Positions 15,050-16,822 of a stretch of 18,473 nucleotides of DNA are shown here, piece after piece; the stretch's first letter is position 1; each line of letters opens with the position of its first letter. Location of the stretch: contig DFIB01000098.1 of assembly GCA_002371375.1 (NCBI GenBank), forward strand, positions 1 through 18,473, in the 5' to 3' direction. The position numbers and the translations under genes are program-made. The notes beneath the pieces are model-generated. The model searched no databases. It was not told where the DNA came from and was given only the letters and a program-made list of their open reading frames with translations. This DNA comes from Mageeibacillus sp. UBA3708. Its GTDB lineage: Bacteria > Bacillota > Clostridia > Saccharofermentanales > Saccharofermentanaceae.

Positions 15050-16225
15050 ATGAATTGTTCTTTGAGTGAGTTTCTTCAGTATATTGAGGAAGAGGACATA
15101 AAGTTTATCAAGCTGGCGTTCTGTGACGTTCACGGCGTACCCAAGAATATATCTATCATGCCGAATGAACTGGAGGATGCGGTAGTGAACGGCATACCGA
15201 TCAATGCGTCGCTCATTCCCGGATTCGGCGAGGATGTCTATCCTGATATATATCTTCACCCTGATATCACGACAACCACTCTTCTTCCCTGGAGGCCTGA
15301 GAACGGCAAAGTCGTAAGGATCTTCTGCGACATCACGCTGCAGGACGGATCGCCTTTCGCGATCGACACGCGCAACGTGCTCAAGAATGCCGTCAGGAAG
15401 GCGCAGGACGAAGGAGTTGAATTCAGGTTCGGATCGAGGATAGAATTCTATCTTTTCAAGACGAACGAATTTGGCGAGCCGACGCTCACTCCGTACGATA
15501 ATGCGGGCTACATGGACATAGCACCCCTGGACAAGGGTGAGAACGTAAGGCGCGAGATCTGCCTGACTCTGGAGAGGATGGGCATCATGCCGATCAACTC
15601 TCATCATGAGGCGGGACCGGGACAGAACCAGATCGATTTCGCCAGCGGCGACCCCGTCAAAGCGGCCGATAATGTCATCACTTACATCACCGTGGTCAAG
15701 ACCGTTGCTGCACGTTACGGGCTTTATGCCGACTTCTCCCCGAAGCCGGTCGAGAATGCCCCCGGCAACGGATTTCATATCAATTTCCTCGCCACATCCG
15801 AAGCTGATAAAGATGCCCAGTCTCACGCCATTGCAGGCATATTGGACCACATCAGGGATAATACCGTTTTCTTCAATAATTCTGTCCAGTCGTACAGAAG
15901 ATTCGGCCAGGGCAGCGCACCAAGCAAGATCTCCTGGTCAGGAGAGAACAGGGGCCAGCTCGTGAGGATCCATCACGCGGGAGCATCCGGTAATGAATAT
16001 GCACAGCTCAGGTCACCCGATGCCATGGCCAATCCGTATCTTGCCATCGCCATGATAATCCACGAAGGCCTCGACGGCATCAGATCGGCAAGGGAACTGC
16101 CGGAAGCAGGCATATCTCTGGCAGATCTTCCTTCCTCCCTCGAGGAAGCAAAGAAGCTCGCATTGGCAAGCAACTTTGCAAATGATGTATTCGGTTCAAA
16201 ACTCGTAGGTGCCTACTGCAGATAA
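15050..16225 (+). CDS. Glutamine synthetase I-like protein, probable pseudoenzyme
   Basis: A 391-residue GSI homologue, shorter than the usual 440-470. Fold motifs are clear: IKFIKLAFCDVHGVPKN, HPDITTTTLLPW, SHHEAGPGQNQIDF, NGFHINF, RSPDAMANPYLA. By eye against B. subtilis/Salmonella GSI, key acids are replaced: Asp50 is N52, Glu129 is R130, Glu220 is Q194, the flap Glu327 is S289 (with a one-residue deletion) and Glu357 is Q319. Glu131 (E132), Glu212 (E187), His269 (H243) and the arginines equivalent to 321, 339, 344 and 359 remain. The C terminus lacks the last ~30 residues that lock the two hexamer rings. It probably cannot make glutamine but may still bind glutamate or glutamine. GGAGG precedes the ATG; the ANTAR gene follows after 12 bp. 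Most pipelines will call it glnA. Confidence 0.88.
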   Translation: MNCSLSEFLQYIEEEDIKFIKLAFCDVHGVPKNISIMPNELEDAVVNGIPINASLIPGFGEDVYPDIYLHPDITTTTLLPWRPENGKVVRIFCDITLQDGSPFAIDTRNVLKNAVRKAQDEGVEFRFGSRIEFYLFKTNEFGEPTLTPYDNAGYMDIAPLDKGENVRREICLTLERMGIMPINSHHEAGPGQNQIDFASGDPVKAADNVITYITVVKTVAARYGLYADFSPKPVENAPGNGFHINFLATSEADKDAQSHAIAGILDHIRDNTVFFNNSVQSYRRFGQGSAPSKISWSGENRGQLVRIHHAGASGNEYAQLRSPDAMANPYLAIAMIIHEGLDGIRSARELPEAGISLADLPSSLEEAKKLALASNFANDVFGSKLVGAYCR

Positions 16226-16237
16226 AAGGAGAAAGCA

Positions 16238-16822
16238 GTGAGAAAAGGAACAAGATTCAGTGTTATGATCGCTTCGTCAAACTCTAAGTTTGACCAGATC
16301 TTAACGACTCTTCTTCCGTCGGATGATTATGGCCCGGTCGAGATCAAGACGTCTGCGGGAGCCGCCAGAAGGGCACTCCTTGATAAGGATTATGACATAC
16401 TCATAGTCAATTCGCCGCTCAAAGACGAGAACGGCGTTGATCTTGCGGTGGATATTGCCAAAGAGACTAATCTAAGCGTCCTTCTTCTCGTGGATGCGCA
16501 GATCTTCGATGAGGTGAGCTACATAGCCGAACGGCACGGCGTGCTCACGCTGGCAAAGCCCACCAGCAGAGCCGTCGTCACGCAGTCGCTGAGGCTTATG
16601 TGTGCGACGCGCAACCGCCTCAGAAAGATGGAGAGGCAGGCTGCTTCTTTCGAGGAGAAGATCAAGGAGATCAAGCTCATCAACCGTGCCAAATTGCTGC
16701 TCATGGAGAAGAAATCCCTCGATGAGGAGACAGCACATAAATTCATTGAGAAACTTGCTATGGACTCCCGCAGTTCAAAGGGGCGCGTAGCTGAAGAGAT
16801 ATTATTACGCTATAAGGAGTAA
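16238..16822 (+). CDS. ANTAR-domain RNA-binding antiterminator with degenerate receiver
   Basis: A 194-residue protein starting at GTG, with AGGAG seven bases upstream. Residues about 5-120 have a receiver fold, but the phospho-acceptor position at the end of strand 3 is Asn (DILIVN58) and the acidic pair near the N terminus is missing; the conserved Lys remains (LAKP, K107). It therefore should not be switched by phosphorylation. A charged coiled coil (about 124-148) leads to the ANTAR domain (about 138-192), with INRAKLLLMEKKSLDEETAH and RVAEEILLRY. ANTAR proteins bind paired hexaloop hairpins in nascent RNA and prevent termination. AmiR and NasT show that ANTAR proteins can be controlled by a partner protein. 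Its co-transcription with the GSI-like gene and the two attenuators upstream suggest these leaders are its targets. Confidence 0.92.
   Translation: MRKGTRFSVMIASSNSKFDQILTTLLPSDDYGPVEIKTSAGAARRALLDKDYDILIVNSPLKDENGVDLAVDIAKETNLSVLLLVDAQIFDEVSYIAERHGVLTLAKPTSRAVVTQSLRLMCATRNRLRKMERQAASFEEKIKEIKLINRAKLLLMEKKSLDEETAHKFIEKLAMDSRSSKGRVAEEILLRYKE

Follow-up and report, generated by a model that had tools for sequence, protein, structure and literature searches.

A probably inactive glutamine synthetase encoded beside an ANTAR antiterminator: a candidate nitrogen switch in rumen and gut Clostridia

Genes and leader features of the locus

The window, by which we mean the whole stretch of 18,473 nucleotides analysed from Mageeibacillus sp. 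UBA3708, belongs to a genome of 2.4 Mb in 245 contigs that is 86% complete. It carries a gene for a glutamine synthetase-like (GS-like) protein, separated by 12 nt from the gene of an ANTAR antiterminator, which is in turn separated by 4 nt from pyrG; a gene for a type III glutamine synthetase (GSIII) and a likely four-gene operon starting with dapL lie on the opposite strand (Table 1). In the latter, dapL and purF exceed the respective NCBIfam cut-offs and lysA scores 266.2 against a cut-off of 297.9, glmS having been identified from its translated sequence and not by a profile scan. The products of glmS and purF are glutamine consumers. Between the dapL operon and GSIII lies a gene (10274-12574, plus strand) for a protein of 766 aa whose similarity to solute-binding proteins does not reach the cut-off. 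At 617-2259 on the minus strand, a gene for a HipB-like helix-turn-helix protein (122 aa) and, after it, one for a HipA-like protein (424 aa) likely make up a type II toxin-antitoxin pair, the NCBIfam matches being under the cut-offs.

Table 1. Coordinates of the genes and leader features discussed, in window positions.
Feature	Position	Strand	Remarks
GS-like gene, 391 aa, proposed sensor	15050..16225	+	ORF list, Pfam
ANTAR antiterminator gene, 194 aa	16238..16822	+	GTG start; receiver-like domain with N58 replacing the phospho-Asp
pyrG (CTP synthase, glutamine-dependent)	16827..18422	+	third gene of a likely GS-like/ANTAR/pyrG operon
GSIII gene, proposed target	12700..14787	-	divergent from the GS-like operon
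dapL-glmS-purF-lysA, likely operon, proposed target	4311..10052	-	gaps of 15, 6 and 30 nt
Predicted GS-like operon promoter, TTGACA-17-CAATAT	14920..14948	+	9/12 positions; ends 7 nt before hairpin
Site 1, hairpin GAAC[AAAGGC]GTTC, GS-like leader	14956..14969	+	near-identical in class IV leaders
Intrinsic terminator overlapping site 1	14962..15005	+	terminator scan; alternative fold
Site 2, hairpin GGC[AAGGAC]GCC, GSIII leader	14853..14864	-	counterparts in relatives
Intrinsic terminator overlapping site 2	14824..14861	-	terminator scan
Predicted GSIII promoter, TTGACA-17-TAAACT	14886..14914	-	21 nt before hairpin
Site 3, hairpin AAGC[AACGGC]GCTT, dapL leader	10117..10130	-	
Terminator-like hairpin overlapping site 3	10080..10126	-	

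The region 12500-17000 contains 9 terminator-like sites, compared to 2.9 ± 1.7 in shuffled sequences, and the terminators that the first-pass annotation had noticed in both divergent leaders are among the features found. Indeed, at three sites of the window a hairpin with a stem of at least 3 bp and a hexaloop with A at its first and G at its fourth position overlaps a terminator, which is the arrangement expected of an ANTAR target RNA. The proposal that targets are available in cis is thus borne out by hairpins in both divergent leaders, but that set was incomplete, a third hairpin being present in the dapL leader and more elsewhere in the genome. The second hexamer of the predicted GS-like promoter is below the scan threshold, and a TTGAC element is seen repeatedly among the aligned leaders. 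A scan of the window with Rfam returned no matches at the gathering score, so that a reading of the leaders as known riboswitches is without support from that database.

The GS-like protein, its ANTAR partner and the conservation of the pair

The GS-like protein matches Pfam Gln-synt_C (225.5 bits) and Gln-synt_N (63.1 bits), and its structural match to the GS fold extends over the whole length, the fold being predicted as intact; its fold neighbours include 8ooq, an archaeal GS in complex with 2-oxoglutarate. Comparison with the GS sequence of PDB 7tdp, using B. subtilis-style numbering, evidences that E132, E196, E304, E333, D52 and R62 are all replaced, the substitutions including E132R, E196Q, E304S, E333Q and D52N, and the protein does not present the set of metal ligands, Glu304 and D50-loop Asp by which an active type I GS (GlnA) is recognised. 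Judging from these residues the GS homologue is probably an inactive enzyme, in agreement with what had been proposed in the first-pass annotation, and glutamine is presumably no longer made by this protein, catalysis being carried out by GSIII instead.

We have analysed the conservation of the pair across genomes, as had been suggested at the outset. A search with the ANTAR profile in named genomes placed a GS gene directly upstream of the ANTAR gene in 78 of the best 80 of 560 loci, the two others (L013 and L070) both beginning at a contig edge, and among relatives a GS gene adjoins all 17 strong ANTAR matches (the window, 15 other genomes of the genus and G051). Chance adjacency is ruled out by these two counts. 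Of 391 genomes drawn from across the class, 142 gave an ANTAR match at 1e-15, and a GS gene is directly upstream in 61 of 80 genomes searched for GS, which were hand-picked from 138 further genomes with an ANTAR match. The remaining 19, with no GS at 1e-40 upstream of ANTAR, comprise weak matches, contig breaks and also some strong matches (for example G158, G165, G318 and G364), and constitute a point against the antitermination circuit considered below. Overall, GS-ANTAR pairs were found in 156 of 159 regions, a biased rate for which 78/80 and 61/80 are better estimates, since of the 60 class regions included 58 were chosen for visible adjacency and only G290 and G190 on the ANTAR match alone; L177 counts as having no pair in these 159 rows, though its coordinates place the two genes side by side. 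There is overlap between the genus and named sets, in that the GS proteins of six genus loci are identical to named ones. The nearest relatives of the pair, among the best 80 of 560, are found in records titled Saccharofermentans, 'Ruminococcaceae bacterium YRB3002' and Mageeibacillus and in rumen Clostridiales MAGs. At one locus (L172, in G099) two GS genes are followed by the ANTAR gene, on one strand by coordinates, possibly a stage of duplication into enzyme and sensor.

The GS proteins of the 156 pairs were sorted into classes according to 15 residues. In class I (n=16, 440-444 aa) all residues are canonical; in class II (n=21) some are changed, most often R62, and E304 is kept; in class III (n=82, usually about 400 aa) E304 is changed, to K in 75 of 82, and the metal ligands examined are mostly kept. 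Class IV, defined by E132R or E333Q, has 37 rows representing 31 distinct proteins, with E132R in 37, E333Q in 35, R331Y in 35, D52N in 34 and E196Q in 19, and with E304 replaced by S in 29, D in 4 and N in 2. By contrast, E134, H245 and R298 are kept in 37/37 and R335 in 35/37 of these rows, and the kept residues are presumed to be those that bind the amino acid. In a tree of 149 different GS proteins in 155 rows (L031 was omitted as short, and the root is for drawing only), a single clade next to class III rows (SH-aLRT 96) holds 36 of the 37 class IV rows; the exception, L175, is on a long branch elsewhere, and its leader is without hairpin. Across Clostridia the GS partner thus spans from canonical, as in the known glnA-nitR, to pseudoenzyme, and we infer from function that the direction was from canonical towards eroded GS.

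Ka/Ks ratios of 0.02-0.09 were obtained in 11 class IV comparisons, Ks being near saturation in those with the window protein itself, and rule out that the GS-like gene is a decaying pseudogene. Such purifying selection would also be expected if the GS-like protein were still an enzyme of altered specificity, such as a further gamma-glutamyl ligase, that just shares a transcript with a nitrogen antiterminator of the ordinary kind, and the metal ligands mostly kept in class III fit this too. Nevertheless, the class IV replacements at E132, E333, E304 and D52, together with scores far below the NCBIfam cut-offs both for GlnA (256.6 bits, cut-off 429.15) and for gamma-glutamylputrescine synthetase (151.4 bits, cut-off 650), make this very improbable.

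The ANTAR protein scores 54.9 bits on the ANTAR domain (PF03861, cut-off 27.3), which assigns it to the family, and 23.0 bits on the receiver domain (PF00072), below the cut-off of 30.2 and not in the range of a phospho-controlled response regulator; its closest solved sequences are 1s8n, a 'putative antiterminator', and AmiR (1qo0). The absence of the phospho-acceptor Asp noted on first inspection was confirmed, residue 58 being Asn here and in 24 of 24 aligned rows. Sorted by the class of the GS partner, position 58 is N in 6/16 (class I), 14/21 (II), 69/82 (III) and 36/37 (IV), and D in 5/16, 3/21, 2/82 and 0/37, respectively. Since most ANTAR proteins paired with a catalytically intact GS also lack the Asp, its absence does not set the window pair apart. 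A second ANTAR protein in the window genome (L001, G000:C60) adjoins a histidine-kinase-like gene and is EutV/EutW-like on reading its sequence.

Leader hairpins and the predicted regulon

Scanning of leaders for A1/G4 hexaloops yielded the target motif, a hexaloop hairpin of the form C[AANGRY]G. Requiring a stem of at least 4 bp and an overlapping terminator, A..G hexaloops gave 81 matches in 81 sequences, compared to 11 for T..G, 3 for G..A, 3 for A..C, 2 for A..T, 15 for C..G and 18 for G..G control loops under the same conditions. When C[AANGRY]G was searched for irrespective of a stem, 82 of its 109 occurrences in leaders of GS-like, GSIII, pyrG, dapL and glmS genes were flanked by a stem of at least 3 bp, versus 123 of 736 occurrences elsewhere. 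Stems vary around one loop from target to target (GAAC/GTTC, GGC/GCC, GAGAC/GTCTC, AAGC/GCTT). An alignment of 61 of 65 listed hairpins, all pre-selected for the stem, gave a covariation score of 0.58 versus 0.26 when shuffled and 111 cells with both-side stem changes versus 52 when shuffled; in view of this pre-selection, the 82/109 count carries more weight.

At the three window sites the free minimum fold is the terminator (-36.1, -34.1 and -30.6 kcal/mol), and forcing the hairpin (-20.7, -17.5 and -14.7 kcal/mol) results in the loss of the terminator base, the two folds being exclusive. As the terminator is favoured by 15-17 kcal/mol, co-transcriptional protein binding must be assumed for the hairpin fold to form.

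The published ANTAR targets (those of EutV, NasR and AmiR; Ramesh et al. 2012) are described as two hairpins with an A1/G4 hexaloop and a terminator overlap, and the window hairpin loop fits the eut-leader consensus AGCAANGRRGCUY given there (PMC3369931). The window leaders resemble these RNAs in the short stem, the hexaloop, the terminator overlap and the nitrogen genes downstream, but have one hairpin, near a predicted -10 element, instead of two. In fact, a second A..G hexaloop is not enriched within 40 nt upstream of the 61 sites (6 versus 4.7 shuffled; none with a stem of at least 4 bp) or within 40 nt downstream (6 versus 4.8; 3 versus 1.7 with such a stem), leaving a dual-hairpin reading unsupported. 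Promoter-like sequences were found at 55 of the 61 sites, with a median distance of 9 nt from their end to the stem (upper quartile 21 nt), and in 32 of these 55 the predicted -10 element is followed by the stem after 6-9 nt, so that a single hairpin at or near the 5' end of the RNA is predicted.

The hairpin follows the pair in the genus. Where the pair is present, a C[AANGRC]G hairpin was found in 15/15 GS-like and 14/14 GSIII leaders, whereas it was found in none of 10 GSIII leaders from nine genus genomes without the pair; eight of these ten leaders have a 3-bp A..G match with another loop sequence and no TTTT run in the stretch examined. These ten loci come from 19 genus genomes searched for GSIII, seven of which had no match at 1e-100, one (G029) a gene cut by a contig edge, and two (G013 and G024) a diverged GS-ANTAR pair with AAGC[AANGGC]GCTT hairpins before GSIII. 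GSIII proteins are 64-67% identical to that of the window where the pair is absent and 72-98% where it is present, and the hairpin comparison is therefore partly one between GSIII lineages. The GSIII leader of the G024 locus L134 contains a tandem of two GAAGC[AANGGC]GCTT hairpins, and a T-rich stretch comes after each.

It might be argued that another, EutV-like ANTAR protein reads the hairpins, or that they are plain leader-RNA switches, the role of the pair being unrelated, and the EutVW-like pair of the window genome could in principle bind these loops. Against this stands the presence of the hairpin in all 15 genus genomes with the pair and its absence from the 10 GSIII leaders without it; moreover, among the 15 other genus genomes with the pair, a second ANTAR match (E ≤ 0.001, in a search that could miss a diverged ANTAR protein) was obtained only in G026, over residues 5-118 and outside the ANTAR domain. 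We consider this explanation hardly probable.

The distribution of hairpins also relates to the GS classes. The leader of the pair itself carries one in 10/16 of class I (AANGRC in 9), 4/21 of class II, 9/82 of class III and 35/37 of class IV, the two class IV leaders without it being L022, whose leader is cut, and L175. The low numbers in classes II and III are a point against the circuit; in class III sites are instead found before GSIII and pyrG. In the named loci and the window, GSIII leaders have the hairpin in 18/18 of class IV pairs and 19/27 of class III pairs, and pyrG leaders in 0/18 of class IV and 15/23 of class III; in the window, a class IV case, pyrG is within the GS-like operon. 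In named loci, hairpins were also found before pyrG, guaA, purA, gdhA and a class II amidotransferase gene, and before one glutamate dehydrogenase gene (L078, 2819-2889, minus strand) there are two consecutive hexaloop hairpins with terminator-like sequences.

Genome-wide searches were made with R1, a hairpin-only covariance model, 150 of 702 candidates being scored. In the window genome it gave 9 matches at E ≤ 10, with a terminator only in the GS-like and dapL leaders, the other seven lying inside open frames of at least 294 codons without a terminator; it recovered two of the three window sites, and the sites of GSIII, gltB and amtB, with stems of 3 bp, were missed. A pattern search allowing two mismatches returned 76 matches in this genome versus 123 in the reversed control, an exact match falling on site 1. 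The gltB leader of the same genome (954.9 bits in NCBIfam on a 982-aa piece, cut-off 1047) contains GGC[AAGGAC]GCT and a terminator, and the divergent amtB contains TGC[AAAGGT]GCA 7 nt after TAATAT, a tentative site whose terminator fell outside the criterion used. In eight relatives R1 gave 50 matches, 30 of them with loci, and 20 of the 30 have an overlapping terminator: 7 before GS-like, 3 before dapL, 1 before GSIII, 7 before gltB-like, 1 before a RelA/SpoT-like and 1 before a class I amidotransferase gene. The gltB-like calls come from translated N-termini, with L239 matching the gltB of the window genome at 68%. The RelA/SpoT-domain gene (G001; L231, 1508-1563) is a single case of hexaloop hairpin and terminator, which hints that nitrogen status and the stringent response may be connected.

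Proposed mechanism and relation to known systems

The predicted chain from the pair to the hairpin and on to nitrogen genes is well supported by the comparative sequence evidence, and we favour, as the likely reading, a NitR-like antitermination circuit whose GS has turned into a dedicated sensor of glutamine (or glutamate), GS-like and ANTAR proteins acting together as a nitrogen switch. That the GS-like protein is the sensor is probable from the conserved pairing, from the catalytic loss with retention of presumed amino-acid-binding residues, and by analogy with AmiC-AmiR, NasS-NasT and GS-TnrA/GlnR; we infer the ligand, the sign of control, the protein contact and the binding of ANTAR to the hairpin. 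The ANTAR protein, which would be without phosphorylation control, may bind the C[AANGRY]G hairpin in nascent leaders, where it lies at the 5' end or close to it; the hairpin is predicted to share bases with the foot of the overlapping terminator, and its binding would let RNA polymerase continue. The targets would be nodes of glutamine supply and use, namely GSIII, GS-like/ANTAR/pyrG, dapL-glmS-purF-lysA, gltB and probably amtB. The GS-like protein would most likely bind glutamine (or glutamate), and its ligand-bound form would sequester the ANTAR protein, so that low glutamine would free the latter and the assimilation genes would be transcribed. The sign, with the glutamine-loaded GS holding the regulator, is proposed because of the Bacillus GS-TnrA precedent.

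GS is the textbook case of an enzyme with a second role in sensing nitrogen. In Bacillus its E flap and D50 loop are reported to contact the regulator (PMC9249791), and R62 and E304 hold the glutamine-bound state. The likeness is that there, as proposed here, GS signals the presence of glutamine to a regulator through direct contact, and residues of both contact segments are changed in the GS-like protein; the difference is that a catalytic GS and a DNA-binding regulator are involved, R62 and E304 both being replaced in the GS-like protein. As for ANTAR control by a co-encoded ligand-binding partner, the partner proposed here has a GS fold, whereas AmiC and NasS have the periplasmic-binding-protein fold. 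The partner of NasS-NasT and AmiC-AmiR is described as holding the ANTAR protein inactive (PMC3795266), and there the ligand releases it, while in our proposal the ligand would hold it.

The circuit may also be real with the GS-like protein as a positive partner or scaffold: a ring, if formed, would display ANTAR proteins so that two act on one hairpin, or the GS-like protein would activate ANTAR at low nitrogen or with 2-oxoglutarate, ATP or glutamate bound. One hairpin per leader is hard to square with ANTAR dimers acting on their own, two GlnR monomers are brought side by side by GS with glutamine bound (PMC9249791), and the 2-oxoglutarate-bound archaeal GS is among the fold neighbours; yet the partner keeps ANTAR inactive in NasS-NasT and, according to the same paper, in AmiC-AmiR (PMC3795266), and we regard such a positive role as unlikely. 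Display of ANTAR subunits by a GS ring could be one way to account for the single hairpin. A more specific form of the sensor reading is quite possible, if somewhat short of probable: the retired GS would serve an RNA antitermination regulon as its dedicated glutamine receptor, an oligomer with Arg132 replacing a metal ligand that gates or displays ANTAR subunits reading one 5'-end hairpin per mRNA, by which a clade of rumen and gut Clostridia would run ammonium uptake, GS, GOGAT and glutamine-consuming pathways.

An ANTAR protein, NitR, controls GS/GOGAT genes under nitrogen limitation in Clostridium saccharobutylicum (PMC6316151), and in C. thermocellum the ANTAR gene Clo1313_2030 is numbered next to an annotated GS gene, Clo1313_2031, in a GOGAT cluster (PMC4676874). 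The initial view that the arrangement is not an established one thus holds in part: the pairing of GS and ANTAR is already known from NitR and Clo1313_2030/2031, but the pseudo-GS version appears undescribed, no account of a pseudo-GS with an ANTAR partner having been found in open-licence PMC titles and abstract starts, which is weak evidence of absence. We take nitR to adjoin glnA in C. saccharobutylicum and the GS encoded there to be a working enzyme, whereas the GS-like protein of the window appears by its residues to be a pseudoenzyme. Both systems have an ANTAR protein serving GS/GOGAT genes and a GS gene directly upstream (78/80 of the best 80 of 560 loci; 17/17 relatives), and class I pairs, with canonical GS upstream and used here as stand-ins for the C. 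saccharobutylicum proteins, carry the [AANGRC] leader hairpin in 9/16. The passages on NitR in PMC6316151 mention neither a sensing role of GS nor a hairpin.

These results suggest that single-hairpin targets challenge the two-hairpin rule for ANTAR proteins, and that, with pairs ranging from canonical GS-ANTAR to pseudo-GS-ANTAR, a comparison of classes can directly test the change of an enzyme into a sensor. Hard-to-culture rumen and gut Clostridia would thereby gain a predicted nitrogen regulon.
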